A stretch of 64,000 nt of DNA from Streptomyces seoulensis (GTDB taxonomy: Bacteria > Actinomycetota > Actinomycetes > Streptomycetales > Streptomycetaceae). The stretch lies in the NCBI RefSeq assembly GCF_004328625.1, contig NZ_CP032229.1, forward strand, positions 2,232,001-2,296,000. The letters run 5' to 3'. The translations under genes were made by a program, and so were the position numbers. Shown piece after piece: positions 5,957 through 36,661 of the stretch (positions are counted from its first letter, which is position 1; each line of letters begins with the position of its first letter). Under the pieces are notes generated by a model that saw nothing but the letters and a program-made list of their open reading frames with translations, was not told where the DNA came from and made no database searches.

Positions 5957-6030
5957 GCGCCGCTAGCTCAGTTGGTTAGAGCAGCTGACTCTTAATCAGC
6001 GGGTCCGGGGTTCGAGTCCCTGGCGGCGCA
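5957..6030 (+). tRNA. tRNA-Lys (anticodon CTT), copy 1
   Basis: A 74-nt cloverleaf. The acceptor strand GCGCCGC pairs perfectly with GCGGCGC, followed by discriminator A; CCA is not encoded. The D arm is GCTC/GAGC, the anticodon stem GCTGA/TCAGC holds loop CTCTTAA (anticodon CTT, reading AAG), and the T arm contains TTCGAGT. A TAGTAT element at 5910-5915 is a plausible -10. The gene is identical to the one at 10061-10134. A strong hairpin terminator follows directly. Confidence 0.97.
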
Positions 6031-6038
6031 CATCTGCC

Positions 6039-10060: not shown

Positions 10061-10134
10061 GCGCCGCTAGCTCAGTTGGTTAGAGCAGCTGACTCTTAAT
10101 CAGCGGGTCCGGGGTTCGAGTCCCTGGCGGCGCA
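10061..10134 (+). tRNA. tRNA-Lys (anticodon CTT), copy 2
   Basis: Identical in all 74 nt to the gene at 5957-6030, with the same acceptor pairing GCGCCGC/GCGGCGC and anticodon loop CTCTTAA. The upstream TAGAGTTTTC at 10041-10050 resembles the TAGTATTTTC before copy 1, so the promoter -10 region is partly duplicated too. Two terminator-like hairpins follow. Confidence 0.97.
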
Positions 10135-10144
10135 CAGACAACGA

Positions 10145-23959: not shown

Positions 23960-24124
23960 CCCCCTGCTCTCCCCTTGCCCCCATGACTACGGGCTGTACA
24001 GGCCCGTTCACCCCGTACAACGCCCGGTGTTCCGGCCCGGTTCCCGATCTTCGCCGCGAGTTGGGGAAATCTCCTCGTCGGGCGCCCTCCTCGGCTGTCA
24101 CCCCTCGGCAGTACGGTGTCATGC

Positions 24125-25138
24125 ATGCGCCCCGACACGCCTGCCGAGAACGTCGACCACACCGCTGAAGCGGCACGCCTGGAGCGGACCGCCGGCCTGT
24201 ACCCCGAGGACGCGGAGGCCCTGCTGCTGCGCGCCGCGGCCCACCTCGAACTGTCCGGCGCCCGCCCCGCGGCGACCGCGCTCTACGACCGACTGCTGTC
24301 CTCCGCCGGCCCGTTGGAGCATCCGCAGCTCGTCCGCGCCCTGAAGGCGGCGAACCTGTGGGAGTACGGCCACGAGGCCGAGGCGCGCGCGATCATCGAC
24401 GGCATCCGCACGGCCGCTCCGCGGGACCCGGCGCCGTGGGTGATCGTCGCGGAGGCGCTGGAGTCGCACGACGAACTGGAGGCGGCGCACGAGACGTTCC
24501 AGGAGGGCGCGGCCCTGCTGCTGACGGACGTCCCGGAGCCGCCGTACGCCACGCACCCGCTCCTCTTCGGCCGCCACCGGGTCCGCCGCATGCTCGGCCT
24601 CCCCCACGACACCTGGGACGCCCTCGCCGACACCCTCCACACCTCCCCGGTCTCCCTGGACGAACTCCACGACCCGAAGCGGGTGTGGTCCCTCGGCTCG
24701 GAGAACCCGGCGGAACTGGAGGCCGAGATCTCCCGCCTCCGAGCGGAGCTGTCCACGGCCCGCGAGGCGTTGTCCCGCCCCTACCCGGTGGCCGTCCTCC
24801 ACTGGCCGTCCTCAGAACTGACGGAACTGGTCACGGCGTACCCGACCCTCGAATCGGAGTACACCTCCCACGCCGACCACCTGGCGACCATAGAGACGTC
24901 CCTGACCGAACTGGCCACCTCCGGCACCCCCAACCTCGGCATCGTCACCGGCACAGTCCCGTCCTACGAGGCCTTCGCCGCCTCGGAGGGCACGTCCCCT
25001 GCGGACCCGGCACTCCTCCCGGAGTACGCGACGACGCTGGCGGCACGGGGGCTGGCGGTGGCTTGGCCGCCGGGGCGGGGGGCGGGGTGCTGGTGTGGGT
25101 CGGGTGTTGTGTATGGGGAGTGTCACGGGGCGCAGTAA
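24125..25138 (+). CDS. TPR-like protein with C-terminal SEC-C zinc motif
   Basis: A 337-residue cytosolic protein. The N-terminal half has helical repeats resembling TPRs (LYPEDAEALLLRAAAHLELSG, then ALKAANLWEYGHEAEARAI and DPAPWVIVAEALESHDELEAAHETFQEG). The end carries a SEC-C-like zinc knuckle: CWCGSGVVYGECHG. The in-frame ATG at 24125 is preferred; a GTG at 24116 is possible. This is the last core gene before the foreign island and appears intact. SEC-C motifs often bind zinc and contact proteins; the role here is unknown. Confidence 0.78.
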   Translation: MRPDTPAENVDHTAEAARLERTAGLYPEDAEALLLRAAAHLELSGARPAATALYDRLLSSAGPLEHPQLVRALKAANLWEYGHEAEARAIIDGIRTAAPRDPAPWVIVAEALESHDELEAAHETFQEGAALLLTDVPEPPYATHPLLFGRHRVRRMLGLPHDTWDALADTLHTSPVSLDELHDPKRVWSLGSENPAELEAEISRLRAELSTAREALSRPYPVAVLHWPSSELTELVTAYPTLESEYTSHADHLATIETSLTELATSGTPNLGIVTGTVPSYEAFAASEGTSPADPALLPEYATTLAARGLAVAWPPGRGAGCWCGSGVVYGECHGAQ

Positions 25139-25221
25139 GACGCACTGGCCAACCCCTTCGGCCGTTGTCAGTAGTGGCTGTTACAACTAATCCACATTGA
25201 CAGGCACCTGAGGGGGTTGCA

Positions 25222-28200
25222 GTGGCAGAGGCTAGGGGGCCGGCAGAGCCGGTTGCTGGGGTTTACGAGAAGCTGATCACTCAGGACGACGAGCGAGAGC
25301 TCGAGCAGCTTGAGGCTCTGGGTTGGAAGGCCATCAACGCGGCGGTCAGCGCGGAGTCCACGCCCCATGTGCTTGCCAGGCACATCGGGGCGCTGGTCGC
25401 CCAACGGCTCACCCAGCTGCCGCCGGAGCAGCGGGTGCCGTTTGCTAACGAACTCCTAGCCTCGCTCGCCGCTAGGGGCGCGACCGAAAGCGAGCCGGAG
25501 GCGGTCAGCGCCCTCATCGAGGGTCCGCAGCAACTGCTGGCGCTTGCTAGGCAGGAGGCTCCGGGAGCCTACTCCGTCCGTCCGCTAACCCCGCTGTCTG
25601 AGGCGTCGCTGTTGACGAATTCCCCGGAGGACTTGAGCCTCGGCACCGAGCTCCGAGCCGAACTTGCCACTGCGGACCGAATTGACCTTCTGTGCGCCTT
25701 TGTGAAGTGGTACGGGATACGAGTCCTTGAGGACGCCTTGCGCGCTGCCAAGGATCGTGGTGTGCCGATTCGGGTCATCACCACCACCTATATGGGTGCC
25801 ACAGACCGCCATGCCCTAGACCGTCTCGTACGAGACTTCGGCGCCACCGTGAAGGTCAACTACGAGATCCGGTCCACCCGCCTGCATGCGAAGGCATGGC
25901 TCTTCCGTCGCAACACGGGCTTTGACACGGCATACGTGGGCAGCTCGAACCTTTCTCGGGCCGCGCTGCTCGACGGGCTCGAGTGGAATGTGCGCCTGTC
26001 GTCGGTGGCTACGCCGGCAGTCCTGGACAAGTTCGAGGCGACCTTTGACGCATATTGGAACGACACCGCCTTCGAAACCTACGACCCTGACCAGCACGGT
26101 GCCCGCCTGGACGAAGCTCTGGCGCAGGCGAGTGGCACTGGGACGGGAACGGACCTGAAGATCAACCTCTCCGGTCTTGAAGTACGTCCGTTCCCGCATC
26201 AGCGGGACATGTTGGAGCGCCTCACGGTCGAGCGGGAGTTGCGCGATCGCCACCGAAACCTCCTCGTTGCCGCCACGGGCACGGGCAAGACCGTGATGGC
26301 CGCCCTTGATTACCGCGGCTTGCGCAAGAACTTCGTGGGTGGCCAGCCGCGGCTCCTCTTTGTCGCCCACCGCAAGGAGATCCTGCGGCAGTCGCTCCGC
26401 ACCTACCGAGAAGTGCTCGATGACGGATCTTTCGGCGAGCTTCTGCATGGCGGTCAGGATCCGCGGGACTGGAACCACGTCTTTGCCAGCGTCCAGTCCC
26501 TCAATGTGCAGCGTCTCGAGCAGTTGGCTCCTGATCACTTCGACATCATCGTCATCGACGAATTCCACCATGCCACTGCGTCTACGTACCGGCGGGTCAT
26601 AGAGCACTTCAAGCCCAAGGAGTTGCTGGGGCTGACGGCCACGCCCGAGCGGATGGACGGACGCAACGTCCAGGATGAGTTCTTCGATGGCAGGATCGCC
26701 GCCGAAATGCGCCTCTGGGAGGCACTGGAAAACGACCTCCTCTGCCCCTTCCACTACTTCGGAGTGCCCGATGGCACGGACCTCACGAACCTGAACTGGC
26801 AGAAGGGTTCGTACACCGACCAGGACCTCGACAAGCTGTACACGGGCAACCACGCTCGCGCTCGCATCGCGGTGAAGCAGATCCAGGACAAGGTCTCCAA
26901 CCCCGGGTTTATGCGGGCGCTCGGCTTCTGCGTCACCAAGGCCCATGCCCACTTCATGGCGGGCTTCTTCCGTGAAGTCGGCTTCCAGGCCGTAGCGCTG
27001 GACAGTGACTCTTCCTCGGACGCACGCGCCCAAGCACTTGCCGACCTCCGTGATGGCAAGCTTCAGGTGATCTTCTCCGTCGACCTGTTCAACGAGGGAC
27101 TCGACATCCCCGACGTCGACACACTGCTGCTGCTCCGTCCCACTAATAGCGCGACGATCTTCCTTCAGCAGCTGGGCCGAGGGCTGCGGCGCACCGAGAC
27201 CAAGCCGGTACTGACAGTCCTCGACTTTATCGGGCAGCACAGGGCTGAGTTCCGCTTTGAGGAGCAGTTCCGGGCTCTGACCAACCTGACCCGCAACCGA
27301 CTGGTCGACCACATCGAGCATGACTTCCCGCAGCTTCCGTCGGGCTGCCAAATCATTCTCGAGGGCAAGTCCAAGGATTTCGTTCTGGACAACATCCGGA
27401 CCCAGCTTGGGGCCACGGTGAAGACGCTGATCAAGGAGGTGAAGTCCTACCACACGCCTCTCTTGGCCGACTACCTGCGCGAGAGCAGGCGCGACATCAA
27501 AGAGTTGTACAAGAGCGACAACTCCTGGACCGCGGTACTGCGCCGCGCAGGGTTCCTCGAAGAGACCGCTCCCCCTGCGGAGGCAGCGCTACTCAAGCGA
27601 GTCCACGCATTTCTGCACGTCGACGACCCGGAGCGGGCGGATGCCTACCAGCGGCTGCTTCAGGATGACGCTCCCACCTACGCGGAGATGAGCCCCCTCG
27701 ATCAGGCATACGCTCGCATGCTGTTCTTCAACATTTGGGACAACGCAGGCGGCTTCACCAGCTATCAAGAGGGTCTTGAGTCACTGCGTCCGCTGACCGC
27801 GTTCCGCGACGAGTTGTGTCAGCTGCTCACGTACGTCATGGAGCGTACGGACCACTTCCCCCTCTCCCTTTCCGGGCGCCTGAGTCAGGTGCCACTGAAG
27901 GTGCACAGCGCCTACAACCGCTCCGAGATACTCGCTGCGCTCGGTGTGGCCCGCCTCGGTGGCCAGATGCCGCGCTCGTTCGCGCAAGGGGTGCAGTGGG
28001 TCGATAAATTGCAGACGGATGCGCTGCTCATCACCCTGGAGAAAAACGAGAAGGACTTCTCCCCCACCGTTCGCTACAAGGATTATGCACTTAGCCCGAC
28101 GCTGTTCCACTGGGAGTCACAGAATGCCACGGCTGTCGACTCTCGCACGGGTAAGCGCTACCAGCACCATGAAGCGTTGGGCAGTGAAGTGCTTCTCTTC

Positions 28201-28371
28201 ATGCGCCGATACAAAAACACTGACATAGGCAAGTCCCAGCCCTGGATGCTGCTCGGGCCGGCCACTTATCACACGCACACCGGCAGCAAGCCGATGGCCA
28301 TCACTTGGCGCCTAGAGCACGAGTTGCCGGCTGATGTGTGGACGTACTCCGCGGCCGTCACGGCAAGCTGA
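25222..28371 (+). CDS. PLD-DEAD helicase-DUF3427 protein (candidate defence or DNA-repair enzyme)
   Basis: A 1049-residue three-part protein. A phospholipase-D-like nuclease domain spans about 130-270, with LHAKAWLF (His222, Lys224) and VGSSNLS but no clear Asp of a full HKD. The superfamily 2 helicase follows: Walker A GTGKT (353-357), DEFHH (446-450), TATP (472-475) and QLGRGLRR (650-657). The last 350 residues are a DUF3427 region. It starts at a GTG after GAGGGGG. Third codon positions are visibly less GC-biased than in neighbours, and the gene abuts an IS and a truncated core gene, all signs of horizontal transfer. Such proteins are met in mobile islands; a defence role is inference. Confidence 0.88.
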   Translation: MAEARGPAEPVAGVYEKLITQDDERELEQLEALGWKAINAAVSAESTPHVLARHIGALVAQRLTQLPPEQRVPFANELLASLAARGATESEPEAVSALIEGPQQLLALARQEAPGAYSVRPLTPLSEASLLTNSPEDLSLGTELRAELATADRIDLLCAFVKWYGIRVLEDALRAAKDRGVPIRVITTTYMGATDRHALDRLVRDFGATVKVNYEIRSTRLHAKAWLFRRNTGFDTAYVGSSNLSRAALLDGLEWNVRLSSVATPAVLDKFEATFDAYWNDTAFETYDPDQHGARLDEALAQASGTGTGTDLKINLSGLEVRPFPHQRDMLERLTVERELRDRHRNLLVAATGTGKTVMAALDYRGLRKNFVGGQPRLLFVAHRKEILRQSLRTYREVLDDGSFGELLHGGQDPRDWNHVFASVQSLNVQRLEQLAPDHFDIIVIDEFHHATASTYRRVIEHFKPKELLGLTATPERMDGRNVQDEFFDGRIAAEMRLWEALENDLLCPFHYFGVPDGTDLTNLNWQKGSYTDQDLDKLYTGNHARARIAVKQIQDKVSNPGFMRALGFCVTKAHAHFMAGFFREVGFQAVALDSDSSSDARAQALADLRDGKLQVIFSVDLFNEGLDIPDVDTLLLLRPTNSATIFLQQLGRGLRRTETKPVLTVLDFIGQHRAEFRFEEQFRALTNLTRNRLVDHIEHDFPQLPSGCQIILEGKSKDFVLDNIRTQLGATVKTLIKEVKSYHTPLLADYLRESRRDIKELYKSDNSWTAVLRRAGFLEETAPPAEAALLKRVHAFLHVDDPERADAYQRLLQDDAPTYAEMSPLDQAYARMLFFNIWDNAGGFTSYQEGLESLRPLTAFRDELCQLLTYVMERTDHFPLSLSGRLSQVPLKVHSAYNRSEILAALGVARLGGQMPRSFAQGVQWVDKLQTDALLITLEKNEKDFSPTVRYKDYALSPTLFHWESQNATAVDSRTGKRYQHHEALGSEVLLFMRRYKNTDIGKSQPWMLLGPATYHTHTGSKPMAITWRLEHELPADVWTYSAAVTAS

Positions 28372-28387
28372 GACCGAACAGCAGGGC

Positions 28388-29359
28388 TTAGAGATTCCGC
28401 GGGTAGAGGACAAGGCGTCATGGTCGGCGGTCTGGCCGTGTGTCCCAGCGTTGGCTGGTCCAGGCTTCGCGGATGAGGCGTCGGATCACGATGATCGCGG
28501 TCATCAACGCGAGCAGTGCGTTGATGACGACCGCTCGACGTTCCGTGCAGGACAGGGTGAAGTTGAAGCCGCGGCTGTACCAGGAGTTGGTGCGCTCGAC
28601 GACCCAGCGGCGAGTGTGGTTGATCGGGATCACGACGCCCTTGGGCTGGATCCGCCACTCGCAGCCGAGATCGGTCAGCAGTTTGCGGGTGACCGTGGAG
28701 TCGTAGCCCGCGTCAAGGTGCACCGTGATCTGCTCAGGCAACGCGAGCTCGAAACGCCCGAGCTTCTCTAGCGTCGGGCGCAGCAGCGGGGAGTCGTGGC
28801 GGTTCGCGCCGGTCACAACACAGCCCAACGGGATCCCGCGTCCGTCGGTCATCCGCGACCACTTGATCCCGAGTTTTCCCCGGTCAACCGGTGATTTCCC
28901 GGCGACCTCACCACCGCAGGGCGCTTTGGTGATCTGCCCGTCGACGGTGATGTCGGCCAGGTCCAGGCCCACGACACGGTCGTAGGTCTCCAACACGATC
29001 TGCTCCAGCCCTGCGAAGACACCGGCCGCGATCCACTCGTTGCGTCGGGTTCTCATCGTGGTTGCCGAGCACGATTGATCGGCGTGCTTCTCGTACGAGC
29101 CGCCGAAGACGAGTTTCGCGACGAGCTTGTCGAACATGATCCGGTCCGGGATCCGTGGGTTGTGACAGCCCCACGGATGTGTCTCGAGATGCGGTGGCAG
29201 GAGGGCCTCGAACTGGACCCACAAGGGCTCGATCGCCCATGCTTCGACGGCTGGCACCGGTGCTCCGTTTTCAGATGTAGAGATGTAGGAGTCCCGCGTC
29301 AAAACGGATCCCGGGCCCGCGTCACATCAGCCTGACGCCCCTACCTGTGAAATTTCTTA
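28388..29359 (-). mobile_element. IS5-family insertion sequence (IS1031-like), with TTA target duplication
   Basis: The element proper is about 28391-29356 (966 bp). Imperfect terminal inverted repeats match at 12 of 16 positions: GAGATTCCGCGGGTAG at the left and the complement of CTACCTGTGAAATTTC at the right. TTA occurs directly outside each end (28388-28390 and 29357-29359), as expected for the TNA duplications of the IS1031 group. One transposase gene fills it on the minus strand. It lies between the helicase and the LapA remnant. Confidence 0.85.
28418..29257 (-). CDS. IS5-family DDE transposase
   Basis: A roughly 280-294 residue transposase. The first catalytic Asp is in DITVDGQITKAP, the second in HLDAGYDSTVTRKLL, and the Glu in RRWVVERTNSWYSRGF, the Y-R-E type signature of the IS5 group. 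The N-terminal DUF4096-like half (WVQFEALLPPH, DRIMFDKLVAKLVFGGSYEKHA) is also present. No frameshift is visible, so it may be active. The start is ambiguous: GTG at 29257 or a TTG at 29302 that adds 15 residues. Its G/C bias is lower than that of core genes. Confidence 0.85.
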   Translation of the reverse strand: MPAVEAWAIEPLWVQFEALLPPHLETHPWGCHNPRIPDRIMFDKLVAKLVFGGSYEKHADQSCSATTMRTRRNEWIAAGVFAGLEQIVLETYDRVVGLDLADITVDGQITKAPCGGEVAGKSPVDRGKLGIKWSRMTDGRGIPLGCVVTGANRHDSPLLRPTLEKLGRFELALPEQITVHLDAGYDSTVTRKLLTDLGCEWRIQPKGVVIPINHTRRWVVERTNSWYSRGFNFTLSCTERRAVVINALLALMTAIIVIRRLIREAWTSQRWDTRPDRRP

Positions 29360-29590
29360 CCAATTGACCAAACTCAGGATCAGTCGGTGGACGTCAGCTA
29401 CTTCGGTGCCCACGGGTGCGTTCCGCTGCGCGTGGCCCTGCTGCCGGCCGCGGTGGCGGGCATCCTGCTCACCGCGCTGGCGGGCAGCACGCGGATCATG
29501 CAGTTGCGCGCGACCGCCCGCAAGCACCGCCGGGCCGACCACAGGGCTGTGAAGGCCGAGGCCAAGGACTCGTCAAAGGCCCGGCGGTAG
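29360..29590 (+). pseudogene. LapA-like membrane protein remnant, 5' end missing
   Basis: From about 29366 the frame reads DQTQDQSVDVSYFGAHG, then a membrane span (LRVALLPAAVAGILLTALAG) and a basic tail (RIMQLRATARKHRRAD) ending at 29590. This matches the second half of Streptomyces LapA-like proteins, in which a first membrane span precedes QSVDVSYFG. The first span and start codon are absent: the coding frame meets foreign sequence at the IS end. A GTG at 29387 could still express 67 residues, with one span. The IS itself has an intact target duplication, so the deletion probably came with the island junction rather than with this transposition. Confidence 0.7.
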
Positions 29591-29596
29591 CCCGGA

Positions 29597-30607
29597 CTAC
29601 CGGGAGCCCGCCACAGGCCGCTGCTTGTAGAAGGACTCCTCCAGGTAGGCGGCCTCGTGCGGCTGGTAGGGCTCCTCCAAGTAGGCGGCCTCGTCTTCGT
29701 CGAGTTCGACGTCCACCGCGGCGACCGCGTCGGCCAGCTGGGTCGGCTTGGTGACCCCAACGATGGGCGAGGTCACCGTCGGGTTGCGCATGACCCAGGC
29801 CAGGGCAACCTGGGCCGGGGACAGACCCCGCTTGCCCGCGATCTCGTGGACACGCTCGGCCACTGCCTGGTCCTCGTCGCGGTAGAGGATCTTGCCGCCC
29901 GCGTCGGTCTCGGCGCGCGCCGTGGCGGTGTCCCGGGCCCGCGTCAGCCTGCCCCGCGCCAGCGGGCTCCACGGGATCACGCCGATGCCCTGGTCGGCGC
30001 AGAGCGGGATCATCTCCCGCTCTGCTTCCCGGTGGATGAGGTTGTAGTGGTCCTGCATCGACACGAACCGGGTCCAGCCGTTCAGGTCAGCCAGGTACAG
30101 GGCCTTGGCGAACTGCCAGGCGTACATGGAAGAGGCTCCGATGTAGCGGACCTTCCCGGACTTGACCGCGTCGTGCAGCGCCTCGAGGGTTTCCTCGATC
30201 GGGGTGTCGTAGTCCCAGCGGTGGATCTGGTACAGGTCGATGTAGTCGGTCCCCAATCGCTTCAGGGAGGCGTCGAGCTCGGCGAGGATCGCCTTGCGGG
30301 ACAGCCCGGCGCCGTTCGGGCCGGGGCGCATCCGCATCCAGACCTTGGTGGAGAGAACGACCTCCTCGCGCCGGGTGAAGTCCTTGACCGCCTGGCCGAC
30401 GATCTCCTCGCTGCTTCCGGCGCTGTATCCATTGGCCGTGTCGAGGAAGTTGACGCCGCCCTCGAGGGCCTGCTTGATGATGTCCCGGCTGGCGTCCGCG
30501 CCCAGCGACCAAGGCTCGCCGCCCCGGTCCGGCTCGCCGAAGCTCATGCAGCCGAGGGCGATGGCGGAGACTTCCAGTCCGGTCGTTCCGAGTTTGATGT
30601 ATCGCAT
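29597..30607 (-). CDS. Aldo/keto reductase
   Basis: A 336-residue cytosolic NADPH-dependent carbonyl reductase of the YhdN/AKR11-like type. The catalytic tetrad is visible: Asp and Tyr in FLDTANGYSAG, Lys in VVLSTKVWM and His in LYQIHRWD. The family segment PWSPLARGRLTR is present. The C-terminus contains a 12-residue duplication (EAAYLEEPYQPH followed by EAAYLEESFYKQ), which most relatives lack. The gene starts only a few bases after a MerR-type promoter (30618-30645), so the transcript is nearly leaderless and is probably induced by aldehydes or electrophiles. Confidence 0.92.
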   Translation of the reverse strand: MRYIKLGTTGLEVSAIALGCMSFGEPDRGGEPWSLGADASRDIIKQALEGGVNFLDTANGYSAGSSEEIVGQAVKDFTRREEVVLSTKVWMRMRPGPNGAGLSRKAILAELDASLKRLGTDYIDLYQIHRWDYDTPIEETLEALHDAVKSGKVRYIGASSMYAWQFAKALYLADLNGWTRFVSMQDHYNLIHREAEREMIPLCADQGIGVIPWSPLARGRLTRARDTATARAETDAGGKILYRDEDQAVAERVHEIAGKRGLSPAQVALAWVMRNPTVTSPIVGVTKPTQLADAVAAVDVELDEDEAAYLEEPYQPHEAAYLEESFYKQRPVAGSR

Positions 30608-30617
30608 GCTTCCGAAC

Positions 30618-30645
30618 CTAGGAATTGGAGTGCGCTCTAACGCAA
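30618..30645 (-). promoter_or_regulatory. MerR-type promoter of the aldo/keto reductase
   Basis: On the minus strand TTGCGT (-35) and TAGGTT (-10) are separated by 19 bp, longer than normal. The spacer contains the near-palindrome TTGGAGTGCGCTCTAA (30625-30640, plus-strand reading), one mismatch from a perfect dyad. An over-long spacer with a centred dyad of this type is the hallmark of MerR-family activation (for example AdhR/NmlR-like). No MerR gene is in the window. Confidence 0.72.
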
Positions 30646-31036
30646 ATACGTCTCGGTCCGGAATTCGGAGGTGTGGGGCATGTGTGCCCTGTCAGGTTTT
30701 GACCGTTTCGGCCAGACGTACCAGAGCACCCAGCGGTAGCGGATAACAAACTGTCAATTCTCGGCCGAGCGCGTGGGGCACTACTCAGCCCCCCGACGGC
30801 AAACCGCCCTCGCGGGTCCGTCGCCACGACCGATCATCGCTCGATCACTAGGAGATTCCGCTGGTCCCGGCGGTGGTATCGCGGCGCTCGCGACGGCGCC
30901 CCTACCCGCGGGATCTCTTAGCAGGGCGGGCCTTGGGGTGGGGCAGACGACCCCGTCGGTGGGTGCTTCTTGCCGCCCGTTAGCCTCGACCGCACGTATG
31001 GCGAACACGGCATACGAGGACGACAGGAGACAAGTC
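30646..31036. other. Intergenic region without a recognised gene
   Basis: About 390 bp between divergent genes. It must hold the promoter of the gene at 31037; I see no convincing -35/-10 pair, only TTGCCG near 30970 followed by GTTAGCCT. No tRNA, RNA motif or coding frame with Streptomyces codon bias stands out. Confidence 0.4.
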
Positions 31037-31339
31037 ATGGCCAAGGTTCCTGGTGCGGTGGTCGCCGCCGTCGGTCTCGTCGGTGGTTACGGCGTCGCCC
31101 GTTGGACGAAGAGGCGGCCGCTCGGTGGGGTGGTGCTGGCCGGGGCCGGGGTCGTTGCCGCGCGGGAGTGGAACGCTCGGGCCGGGGCTCCTACGGCTGC
31201 CGCGCTGACCGGTGCGTACGTCGCCGGGTTCGCCGGGTCCCACCCCCTCGCCAAGAAGGTCGGCGCCTGGCCCTCCGTGCTCGGCGTGGCCGGCGCGGTC
31301 GCCCTCGCCTCCTGGGCGTTCGCCGACCGGCGGAGCTGA
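31037..31339 (+). CDS. Small Gly/Ala-rich hypothetical membrane-associated protein
   Basis: A 100-residue protein, MAKVPGAVVAAVGLVGGYGVARWT, with two or three short hydrophobic segments and repeated Gly-Ala stretches (VVLAGAGVVAAREW, AALTGAYVAGFAGSHPLAKKVGAW, VLGVAGAVALASWAF). I do not recognise its function. AGGAG eight bases before the ATG supports this start; an in-frame ATG at 30998 would add 13 residues. Third-position GC is high, as for a real gene. It ends at a strong shared terminator. Confidence 0.65.
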   Translation: MAKVPGAVVAAVGLVGGYGVARWTKRRPLGGVVLAGAGVVAAREWNARAGAPTAAALTGAYVAGFAGSHPLAKKVGAWPSVLGVAGAVALASWAFADRRS

Positions 31340-31356
31340 ACACCACGTCCCCCGGT

Positions 31357-31388
31357 CGGGGCCGCCCGGCACATCCCTGGCGGCCCCG
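31357..31388. terminator. Bidirectional hairpin between small protein gene and MFS gene
   Basis: CGGGGCCGCC (31357-31366) pairs perfectly with GGCGGCCCCG (31379-31388), giving ten base pairs and a 12-base loop. It sits between convergent stops (31339 and 31396). No T-run follows, as is common in Streptomyces. Confidence 0.6.
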
Positions 31389-31395
31389 TGTCCAC

Positions 31396-32925
31396 CTATC
31401 CCACCCCCACCCCCGAAGGCGCCGTGGACGACAGCGGCGTGGCCACGTCCTCCAGTGAGCGCCCCTCCGCCCGTACCGCCAGTGCCGCCGCGACCAGGCC
31501 CGCCACGCACATCAGGGACGCGCCGATCTGGAAGGCGAGGACCGTGTCGCCCACGTGGCCGGTGCTCGTCAGGTCGGCGAAGATCAGCGGGCCGCTGATG
31601 CCGCCCGCCGCCGTGCCCAGGGCGTAGAAGAAGGCGATGGACATCGCGCGGGTCTCCATCGGGAAGATCTCCGAGACGGTGAGGTACGCGCTCGACGCGC
31701 CCGCGGAGGCGAAGAAGAGGACCGCGCACCAGCAGGCCGTCAGGGTGGTCGCGCTGAGCGAGCCACGGTCGAAGAGCCATGCCGTGCCGAACAGCAGGAG
31801 GCCGGAGAGCAGGTACGTGGACGAGATCATCACCCGGCGCCCCACCGTGTCGAACAGCTTGCCCAGCAGCAGGGGGCCGAAGAAGTTGCCGACCGCGATG
31901 ACCGCGAAGTAGTAGCCGGTCCGGTCGGCCGGGACGTCGAAGAAGCGGGTGAGGATGGCGCCGAAGCCGAAGGTGATGGCGTTGTAGAGGAACGCCTGGC
32001 CGATGAAGAGGGAGAAGCCGAGTACCGCGCGCCGGCGGTAGCGGCCGAAGACGGTGCGGGCGATCTCCAGGAAGGTGACGCTGCCCCGGCGGTGGATCTC
32101 CAGCCGGCCCTCGGGCGCGGGCAGCGCGTGCCCCTGCTGATCCTCGATCTTCCGCTCGATCCCGGAGACGATCTCCTCCGCCTCCCGGTCCCGGCCGTGG
32201 ATCAGCAGCCAGCGTGGGCTCTCCGGTACGTGCCGTCGTACCAGCAGGATGACCAGGGCGAGCACCGCGCCGAGGGCGAAGGTGAGGCGCCAGCCGATGT
32301 TCTCCGGCAGGAAGGCGGTGTCCAGCGCCAGGATGGACAGCAGGGAGCCGCCCACCGCGCCCAGCCAGAAGCTGCCGTTGATCATCAGGTCCACCCGGCC
32401 GCGATAGGCGGCCGGGATCAGCTCGTCGATCGCGGAGTTGATGGCCGCGTACTCCCCGCCGATGCCGAAGCCGGTCAGGAAGCGGAACAGGAAGAACCAC
32501 CACGCCTCGGTCGACAGCGAGGTCAGCGCGGTCGCCGCGAGATACACGGCCAGCGTGATCATGAACAGCTTGCGGCGCCCGAAATGATCCGTCAGGCGCC
32601 CCCAGAACAGGGCGCCGACGCACGCACCGGCCACGTACAGCGCGGCCGCGGTGCCGGTGACCTGCCCGGAGCTGATGGAGAGTCCGCTGCCGGGCTCGGA
32701 GAGCCGGCCCGCGATGTTGCCGACGACCGTGACCTCCAGGCCGTCGAGAATCCACACCGTGCCCAGGCCGACCACGATCGTCCAGTGCCAGCGGGACCAG
32801 GGCAGACGGTCCAGCCGGGCCGGGATGTCGCTGGTGGTCGAGCCACCTCCCGCCGCACCGCCGCCGTTCGCACCGCTTCCGGTCGAGCCGCCCGATCGTG
32901 ACGGCGTCCCCGCTCCCGTACTCAT
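31396..32925 (-). CDS. MFS transporter, sugar/aromatic-acid type
   Basis: A 509-residue transporter with 12 predicted spans. A Gly/Ser-rich cytoplasmic head of about 40 residues precedes the first span. MFS signatures are GRLTDHFGRRKLF after span 2 and LGKLFDTVGRRVMI after span 8; the sugar-porter-like motifs PESPRWLLIHGR before the central loop and FLTGFGIGGEYAAINSAIDE are clear. The IGGEYAA motif is typical of metabolite:H+ symporters. Substrate unknown. The ATG at 32925 is chosen with GAGGGG upstream. Confidence 0.88.
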   Translation of the reverse strand: MSTGAGTPSRSGGSTGSGANGGGAAGGGSTTSDIPARLDRLPWSRWHWTIVVGLGTVWILDGLEVTVVGNIAGRLSEPGSGLSISSGQVTGTAAALYVAGACVGALFWGRLTDHFGRRKLFMITLAVYLAATALTSLSTEAWWFFLFRFLTGFGIGGEYAAINSAIDELIPAAYRGRVDLMINGSFWLGAVGGSLLSILALDTAFLPENIGWRLTFALGAVLALVILLVRRHVPESPRWLLIHGRDREAEEIVSGIERKIEDQQGHALPAPEGRLEIHRRGSVTFLEIARTVFGRYRRRAVLGFSLFIGQAFLYNAITFGFGAILTRFFDVPADRTGYYFAVIAVGNFFGPLLLGKLFDTVGRRVMISSTYLLSGLLLFGTAWLFDRGSLSATTLTACWCAVLFFASAGASSAYLTVSEIFPMETRAMSIAFFYALGTAAGGISGPLIFADLTSTGHVGDTVLAFQIGASLMCVAGLVAAALAVRAEGRSLEDVATPLSSTAPSGVGVG

Positions 32926-33006
32926 CGGCACCCCTCGCTCCTCGGCACCCCTTCGTCGTCGAAGGACGACTTACGGGTGCCCGCGCCGCACGGGATCAGA
33001 CCGGGC

Positions 33007-33033
33007 CGCCCGGCAGGCTCACCCCGCCGGGCG
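33007..33033 (-). terminator. Possible terminator of the DUF445 gene
   Basis: CGCCCGGC (33007-33014) pairs with GCCGGGCG (33026-33033) just past the DUF445 stop. The eight-base-pair stem is GC-only with an 11-base loop and no T-run. Confidence 0.4.
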
Positions 33034-33038
33034 AGCCG

Positions 33039-34385
33039 TCAGCCGCCGAGCGCCCGCGACACGGTGTAGATGACCAGCCCGGCCAGCGAACCCACCACCG
33101 TGCCGTTGATCCGGATGAACTGGAGGTCGCGCCCGATGTGCGCCTCGATCTTCCGGGTGGTGTGCTCCGCGTCCCAGCCCGCCACCGTCTCGGTGATCAG
33201 GGAGGTGATCTCCTTGCGGTAGCTGGTGACCACGTGGACGGCCGCGCCCTCGACCCAGCGGTCGACCTTGCCCTGCATCTTGGGCTCGGTCGCCAGCCGC
33301 CGCCCCAGCGAGAGCAGCCCGGTCCGCACCCGCAGGCGCAGCTCGCTGTGCTCGTCCTCCGCCGCCGCGACGATCATCGACCGTACGGCGGTCCAGGCGG
33401 ACGCGATCAGGTCCTGCACCTCGTCCCGGGCCAGCACCTCGCGCTTGAGCCGGTCCACCCGTGCCCGGGTCTCGGTGTCGGACTGGAGGTCGGAGGCGAA
33501 GTCGGTGAGGAAGCGGTCCAGGGCGGCGCGCGCGGGGTGCGAGGGCATCTCCCGCATCTCCGTGACGAAGCGCAGCAGTTCCTTGTAGACGCGGTCGCCG
33601 ACCTTGCGGTCCACGAAGCGCGGGGTCCAGCCGGGCGCGCCGCCCTCGATGGCCACCATCACGTCGTCCCGGTGCCGCTCCAGCCACTCGTGGGCGCGGC
33701 CCACCACCAGGTCGACCACGCGCCGGTGGCCGCCGTCGGCCACGATCCGGTCCAGCAGCTTGCCCACGGCCGGTCCGATCTCCCGCGCGTCGGCCCGCCG
33801 GGTGATCGCCTCCCCCACCACCGCCTGCACGTCCGAGTCGCGCAGCACGGTCAGCGCGCCGCGCAGCGCGGTGGCCAGCTCGGCGGTGACCCGGTCGGCG
33901 TTGGCCGGCTCGGCCAGCCAGTCACCGAGCCTGCTGCCGATGCCGACGGCGGCGAGCCGCTGCCGTACGACGTCCTCGGAGAGGAAGTTCTCCCCGACGA
34001 ACTCGCCCAGGGAGACGCCGAGCTGGTCCTTCTTGGTGGGGATGATCGCGGTGTGCGGGATGGGCAGGCCCAGCGGGTGCCGGAACAGCGCGGTGACCGC
34101 GAACCAGTCGGCGAGCGCGCCGACCATCCCGGCCTCGGCGGCCGCCGCGACATAGCCCGTCCAGTGTCCCGCCCCCGCGTGCCCGGCCCAGGTGGCCAGG
34201 GCGTACACGACGGCGACGAACAGCAGCAGTCCGGCCGCCGTGAGCTTCATGCGCCGTACGCCGCGCTGCCGCTCCTCGTCGGCCGCCGTGAAGGCGGTCA
34301 TGGTCCGGTACGAACCGGCCCGCCCGGCAGCCGTCGGCCGGGGGGTGCGGCCCGGCTCCGCCTCTTCCGTTTGCGCGCGTTCCAT
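33039..34385 (-). CDS. DUF445 family membrane protein
   Basis: A 448-residue protein. The first span (KLTAAGLLLFVAVVYALATW) and a second in AAAAEAGMVGALADWFAVTALFRHPLG mark the N-terminus; that second motif with HPLGLPIPHTAIIPTKKDQLG is the DUF445 (YheB-like) signature. A long helical, charged middle follows, and a last hydrophobic segment (INGTVVGSLAGLVIYTVSRAL) ends the protein. The ATG at 34385 is preferred to a GTG at 34418 because GGAG stands nearby. The family's role is not established. Confidence 0.85.
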   Translation of the reverse strand: MERAQTEEAEPGRTPRPTAAGRAGSYRTMTAFTAADEERQRGVRRMKLTAAGLLLFVAVVYALATWAGHAGAGHWTGYVAAAAEAGMVGALADWFAVTALFRHPLGLPIPHTAIIPTKKDQLGVSLGEFVGENFLSEDVVRQRLAAVGIGSRLGDWLAEPANADRVTAELATALRGALTVLRDSDVQAVVGEAITRRADAREIGPAVGKLLDRIVADGGHRRVVDLVVGRAHEWLERHRDDVMVAIEGGAPGWTPRFVDRKVGDRVYKELLRFVTEMREMPSHPARAALDRFLTDFASDLQSDTETRARVDRLKREVLARDEVQDLIASAWTAVRSMIVAAAEDEHSELRLRVRTGLLSLGRRLATEPKMQGKVDRWVEGAAVHVVTSYRKEITSLITETVAGWDAEHTTRKIEAHIGRDLQFIRINGTVVGSLAGLVIYTVSRALGG

Positions 34386-36570: not shown

Positions 36571-36577
36571 ATGCTGG

Positions 36578-36661
36578 TGCGGCCGGAGGGACTCGAACCC
36601 TCACGGGAGTTACCCCACTGGGACCTAAACCCAGCGTGACTGCCAATTCCACCACGGCCGC
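36578..36661 (-). tRNA. tRNA-Leu (anticodon TAG)
   Basis: An 84-nt class II tRNA read on the minus strand. Acceptor GCGGCCG pairs with CGGCCGC, followed by discriminator A. The anticodon stem CTGGG/CCCAG holds loop TTTAGGT, giving anticodon TAG for CTA. A long variable arm follows, then a T loop with TTCGAGT. CCA is not encoded. Confidence 0.96.

Follow-up and report, generated by a model that had tools for sequence, protein, structure and literature searches.

The window analysed here, a stretch of 64,000 nucleotides from the Streptomyces seoulensis genome, carries on its forward strand (25222..28371) a gene for a SauUSI-type (type IV) restriction endonuclease. Its product is very probably a single-chain, ATP-dependent enzyme of the SauUSI family that restricts DNA carrying 5-methylcytosine (m5C), and it occupies a writer-or-cutter immigration-control slot, which in many other Streptomyces holds an m5C-adding methyltransferase instead. 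We propose that the slot alternates in this way, and that genomes seldom keep both genes, because the two are likely incompatible. The enzyme type is already known, and the new part is the genus-wide alternation of writer and cutter at one address; this alternation is also the best evidence here that m5C is the target of the enzyme in vivo.

Architecture and family of the nuclease

The open reading frame (ORF) encodes 1049 amino acids from a GTG start without interruption by stop codons, and a gaggggg motif, read by eye, lies 5 nt 5' of the GTG. Pfam assigned PLDc_2 (residues 169-279), ResIII (321-477), Helicase_C (565-656) and DUF3427 (857-1042) in this order, in agreement with a first-pass annotation of the window, which had described a PLD-helicase-DUF3427 fusion of this length with a variant HKD motif. 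In an alignment of 32 homologues, H222, K224, N243 and E254 were invariant, and the HKD position lacked D. Together with the Pfam match, these residues define a PLD-family nuclease domain at approximately residues 129-291 (25606..26094, +), its limits being set from a structure model. It is followed by SF2 translocase/helicase domains (residues ~321-690; 26182..27291, +) containing the motifs GTGKT (353-357), DEFH (446-449) and QQLGRGLR (649-656), and the ATPase residues G353, T354, G355, K356, T357, D446, E447, H449, Q650, G652 and R653 were invariant across the same homologues. A helical coupler (residues ~691-880; 27292..27861, +), recognized from the secondary structure of the model, has the same position in the alignment to SauUSI, and an SRA-like target-recognition domain at the C-terminal end of DUF3427 occupies residues ~890-1049 (27889..28368, +).

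The protein matched the PADLOC mREase_IV model PDLC03659 with 1894 bits over 945 of 945 model positions (residues 105-1049). A family profile matched SauUSI of Staphylococcus aureus (PDB 7clg), a structurally solved type IV enzyme cutting DNA with 5mC or 5-hydroxymethylcytosine (5hmC), nearly end to end (7clg 27-952, E 1.6e-191). When the final 180 codons of 17 homologues were used as a profile, 7clg 835-921 was matched at E 1.6e-6, with the next match at E 0.17, and the alignment to 7clg suggests an SRA fold for the recognition domain. Comparison of the structure model returned helicase-centred matches and 7clg among the matches listed. As in SauUSI, PLD nuclease, SF2 ATPase, helical coupler and SRA-like recognition domain are joined in one chain, with the HxK part of the nuclease motif and no cognate methylase; identity is 26% across 603 structurally aligned residues, and the window protein is 96 aa longer. 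Judged by its sequence, it belongs to the SauUSI-type type IV restriction enzymes.

The first-pass annotation had seen no partner methylase, and indeed no companion methylase gene was found within 19 kb behind the SEC-C-motif gene located upstream of the nuclease. Because the domain layout matches SauUSI, a type IV enzyme already characterised, we regard this absence as part of what defines the system and not as a missing piece. A six-frame search of the source genome likewise gave no C5 match at E≤1e-15, its only C5-like gene lying on contig C2.

The additional length relative to SauUSI comes with an extra N-terminal helical part, residues 1-115 (window 25222-25566), whose consensus among the homologues includes the motif YEKLIT...PHVLARH. 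No Pfam family was found on these residues, which lie outside the SauUSI alignment, and the structure model is mostly of low confidence over the N-terminal ~115 residues.

The composition of the gene is atypical, as had been pointed out for its codon use: its GC content is 62.5% and its GC at third codon positions (GC3) 0.79, compared with 72.1% for window bases 1-25000 and 33001-64000 and a GC3 of 0.91 for the SEC-C gene. The 78 measured Streptomyces homologues are equally low, ranging from 57.3 to 69.0% around a mean of 62.9% (s.d. 2.0), against 71.5% in the flanks of 61 loci. A composition that the homologues share does not show that the gene arrived recently, and we rejected this inference.

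The slot and its contents

The left border of the slot is a 340-aa SEC-C-motif gene (24116..25138, +; Pfam SEC-C, E 1.1e-4), found in 119 of 150 Streptomyces genomes at E≤1e-40. Of 150 Streptomyces genomes, 41 have a full-length homologue of the nuclease, and in a phylum-wide draw DUF3427 was present in 23 of 246 genomes. From 225 confirmed loci we kept 80 fetched loci, a set without any S. coelicolor record. The homologue followed the SEC-C gene on the same strand, 86-5430 bp 3' of it, in 68 of these 80; several contig ends are among the other 12. A homologue from S. violaceoruber (L009, 81% identity) stands behind the same SEC-C gene. Across 66 loci, the divergence of the nuclease was weakly correlated with that of the SEC-C gene (Mantel rho 0.29, 0/500 permutations as high), and single pairs were mismatched: L048 and L052 share 95% of SEC-C and 74% of the nuclease, and L060 and L070 share 79% and 90%. 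The address is therefore kept while the content is exchanged.

The "foreign island" suggested at first therefore holds only in half: throughout the genus the address stays in place, and it is the content that changes hands. A conserved housekeeping context of the homologues had been named as a finding that would speak against a defence role; the context is literally conserved (68/80 behind SEC-C), but as a hot spot of restriction systems rather than as a housekeeping operon.

A C5 (m5C) methyltransferase was present in 0/36 SauUSI slots versus 50/81 slots without SauUSI, and the two genes never stood together in a single slot among 118. The split copy of G057 was counted among the 36, and G144 was excluded from the slot test. 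In G079 and G142 SauUSI lies beyond the fetched stretch, so both were counted among the 81, and G130, with SEC-C at a contig end, was outside the set. The family scan of slot ORFs omitted 28 of 128 ORFs, mostly short and a few long, and no integrase appeared among the 25 of 72 slot-ORF families listed. With interchangeable restriction systems at one address, the slot qualifies as an immigration control region, and the presence of m5C-adding systems in its place in many relatives suggests that cutter and writer seldom coexist.

On a FastTree tree of SEC-C comprising 113 slots (five short or partial ones were left out), slot content changed 50 times, compared with a mean of 50.6 in 100 shuffles; this is a single-gene flank tree, and the test would lose strength if the flank itself had been transferred. 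A natural swap is seen in G066 and G115, which are 96.8% identical in DNA up to the end of SEC-C and then carry different cargo, 15.5 kb with a C5 methyltransferase in G066 and 4.5 kb with the nuclease in G115, before identity returns at 91% over 2.4 kb. Eight pairs of differing content were aligned, and the others resume partly or, as with G115/G126, not within the stretch. Recombination between flanks would be the simplest swapping mechanism.

The exclusion also extends to whole genomes. C5 methyltransferases (PF00145, E≤1e-15, six-frame search) were detected in 6/41 SauUSI genomes versus 87/105 others (p 1.6e-14). Left out of this count were four genomes with broken or partial nuclease copies: G057 (split), G089 (split, with a stop in the second piece), G138 (partial) and G144 (partial, in fragments). 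G057 and G144 have C5 matches at E≤1e-15, as would be expected if a genome that loses the cutter can then accept a writer. The depletion persisted when only genes outside the slot were counted, with matches down to E 3.3e-25 (5/41 vs 50/105, p 5e-5), and when this was confined to SEC-C genomes (4/37 vs 30/79, p 0.002). Where SEC-C was ≥78% identical to that of the window, C5 genes were found in 3/24 SauUSI genomes versus 30/32 others; below 78%, the counts were 1/13 versus 36/47. A looser cut-off of E≤1e-5 gave 14/41 versus 95/105, raising the exceptions from 6 to 14 of 41, or to 15/41 (p 1e-10) with the contig-C2 gene of the source genome added. In 242 further, unused genomes the counts were 17/68 versus 144/174 (p 4e-17), the former becoming 16/65 when three partial or distant copies were omitted. 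N6-adenine methyltransferases (PF02384), serving as a control, showed no depletion (36/41 vs 81/105, p 0.17). For independent tree pairs, slot content and genome-wide C5 each had a median p of 5e-4, and the N6 control one of 0.69.

Two helicase-DUF3427 homologues, at G006:C13:117138-119270 (open frame of 1295 aa) and G029:C8:50076-52247 (1349 aa), match only residues 326-1044 (55-56%) and apparently have another N-terminal part. Both genomes carry C5 methyltransferases and were counted as SauUSI-negative; reassigning them gives 8/43 versus 85/103.

Mechanism, exceptions and competing explanations

If the enzyme works like SauUSI, its C-terminal SRA-like domain would flip out and bind the modified base, 5-methylcytosine or 5hmC, within short SmCNGS-type contexts, this would activate the SF2 motor to translocate along the DNA, and the PLD nuclease domains of a dimer would then make a double-strand break. 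Incoming plasmids, phages and restriction-modification (R-M) elements marked with m5C would be destroyed, and the establishment of an m5C methyltransferase with a matching site would expose the host chromosome itself to attack. The anti-phage one-gene system proposed by the first-pass annotation survives as a one-gene defence in a variable site, with the qualification that its target is likely m5C-modified DNA and not phage in general.

Several observations weigh against this reading. The exclusion is not absolute: at E≤1e-15, a C5 methyltransferase is found in six of the 41 carriers (G012, G067, G069, G013, G091 and G060). Those of G012 and G067 are long open genes with PPC and ENV motifs on large contigs, and that of G069 lies on a 152-kb second contig. 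The 17 of 68 carriers in the further set behave in the same way, and the methyltransferases of G418 and G429 are recognised by PDLC00032 and PDLC03304, two PADLOC models with matches among slot methyltransferases as well. The source genome (G000) itself has a C5 methyltransferase-like gene of 592 aa (Pfam 1.2e-16 for the whole protein, below the six-frame cut-off) on the 87-kb contig C2 (L270:10149-11927, -). Next to it are a recombination-type protein and a WhiB-like regulator, and farther on lies an integrase-like gene; the methyltransferase-like gene may represent a conflict with the nuclease or an escape from it. In genomes without the SEC-C slot, the difference was not significant (2/4 vs 21/26), and exclusion within the slot could partly reflect room for one cargo per slot. 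At the level of residues, the published SauUSI motif H-x-K-x4-E has R229 at its last position in the window protein (E126 in SauUSI), F841 of the SauUSI base pocket is replaced by L936, and M829 is unmatched.

Some of these exceptions lean to phage families. PHROG versus PADLOC models gave 194 versus 95 bits for the methyltransferase of G013, 173 versus 97 for that of G091 (only 174 aa) and 184 versus 89 for the source-genome gene; for G069 the scores were 269 and 254. Nine other exceptions, examined as a control, matched PHROG families too, although eight of the nine scored higher with PADLOC models, and for this reason "phage-like" is a leaning and not proof for G013, G091 and the source-genome gene. 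If the proposed mechanism is right, the methyltransferases of the exceptions would use other contexts or stay silent, or the nuclease would be silent.

A SauUSI relative that no longer reads m5C and instead responds to another modification (phosphorothioate or a hypermodified base) or to a structure, with the slot pattern arising from cargo competition, would fit the only partly matched base pocket, the slots that hold either gene and never both, and the 14/41 carriers with some C5-like match at the looser cut-off. We consider it unlikely, as C5 genes are depleted outside the slot too, and genome-wide in the 242 further genomes, while N6 methyltransferases are not. In alignments read by eye, W868, D858 and I842 of the SauUSI pocket correspond to W964, D954 and I937, with Y831 changed to W926; D954 is invariant and W964 nearly so among the 32 homologues. 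In addition, PMC3874153 reports in vivo restriction of m5C DNA by ScoA3I of S. coelicolor. It is likely the Streptomyces precedent of the window enzyme, as a putative orthologue in what may be the same slot.

A general anti-phage or toxic one-gene system of the abortive type, independent of modification, could draw on the PLD and helicase domains known in other defence systems and on weak PADLOC matches to PbeA, ZacB, MkoB and PsyrT. These reach 21-103 bits against 1894 for mREase_IV, and the SauUSI domain order and nearly end-to-end match make such a system very improbable. A RadD/XPB-type DNA-repair helicase or HsdR subunit can practically be dismissed: RadD scored 100 bits against an NCBIfam equivalog cut-off of 720 and HsdR 20 against 284.55, no hsdM or hsdS was found among the seven neighbouring ORFs scanned, and both the extra nuclease and recognition domains and the full-length presence in only 41/150 genomes speak against it.

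Beyond the preferred reading of an m5C-dependent nuclease in this slot, a stronger statement is possible, to which we give slightly less than even credence: that a Streptomyces-wide slot alternates between m5C writers and an m5C-dependent nuclease, made exclusive by lethal incompatibility, and switches frequently enough to leave its state random with respect to the flank tree. If true, the genus would be split into m5C-marked and m5C-intolerant exchange groups, and this split would shape which strains trade plasmids, phages and biosynthetic clusters. The exclusion itself, seen over 392 genomes, provides natural-history evidence that Streptomyces SauUSI-type enzymes police m5C in vivo. Restriction conflict as a force structuring gene flow becomes directly testable at one address, with natural swap pairs such as G066/G115 as ready comparisons, and the pattern may be useful in practice for telling from the sequence alone whether a strain will reject m5C-marked (dcm+) DNA.

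Neighbourhood and related systems

The variable slot was set at 25139..30947, from the SEC-C gene to the conserved right side, by comparison with L031, right-side pieces and the swap pair G066/G115. Similarity to L031 of S. bauhiniae, the nearest of the 80 loci (92% in DNA across the SEC-C and nuclease genes), ends at 28369 and returns only at 30948, so the variable segment extends past 29362, its end as initially annotated. Pieces of 1.2 kb from the right side (starts 30401-33401) match 14-22 of the 80 loci, which carry ≤6 kb of flank, and a transporter gene near 31396-32931 belongs to the conserved right side.

Behind the nuclease lies the insertion sequence (IS) noted earlier, an IS5-family element (28386..29361) present as a single copy in the source genome. 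Its transposase (28418-29302, -) matched NCBIfam IS5_3 with 129 bits (cut-off 110), and its possible ends near 28386 and 29361 are imperfect, with at best 15/20 bases agreeing. A C-terminal remnant of a LapA-domain gene (29351..29590, +; Pfam LapA_dom, E 3e-8) follows, probably cut on its 5' side by the IS. The truncated gene named as one border is thereby identified, while the "core gene" named as the other, SEC-C, is common rather than universal. An aldo/keto reductase gene (29597..30607, -; Pfam Aldo_ket_red, E 3e-80), without match in L031, is extra cargo of the variable segment. A tRNA-borne island was rejected, the closest tRNA lying at 36575-36661. Elsewhere in the window, two tRNA-Lys(CTT) genes (5957-6031 and 10061-10135) stand ~4 kb apart, and an integrated element may lie between them.

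Among known systems, ScoA3I (Sco2863) is given by Loenen and Raleigh (PMC3874153) directly below SauUSI and two staphylococcal relatives, and its gene SCO2863 is placed by passages of PMC1934918 and PMC3017869 in the S. coelicolor islet Gi-3 (SCO2862-2871; 8.6 kb, 65.9% GC, low codon adaptation index), which is missing from S. lividans. It resembles the window enzyme as a SauUSI-group m5C-restricting type IV enzyme and in its low-GC islet setting. A term search in an Actinobacteria defence survey (PMC10482375) found SauUSI absent and "type IV" only in the references, and our literature search, which covered few subscription papers, returned no account of the slot or of SauUSI-C5 exclusion in Streptomyces.

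The immigration control regions of E. coli and Listeria also hold interchangeable restriction systems at a single address; for lmo0301-lmo0305 of Listeria monocytogenes, passages of PMC10059834 state that type II systems were never co-localised with type I or IV. The Streptomyces slot differs in being genus-wide across species, in opposing an m5C writer to an m5C-dependent cutter, and in a depletion that also holds outside the slot. Conflicts between an R-M methylase and a methylation-dependent nuclease, either exclusive or silenced, are described in passages on the exclusion of the StyLTI methylase and Mrr, on PcaRCI/PcaRCII silencing (PMC8989522) and on McrBC, which kills upon new methylation (PMC2614495), and a passage of a 2025 review (PMC12707154) puts this incompatibility in general terms. 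StyLTI/Mrr, PcaRCI/PcaRCII and McrBC share this opposition with the Streptomyces slot and differ from it in the enzymes involved; a single slot shared across a genus does not appear in these passages.

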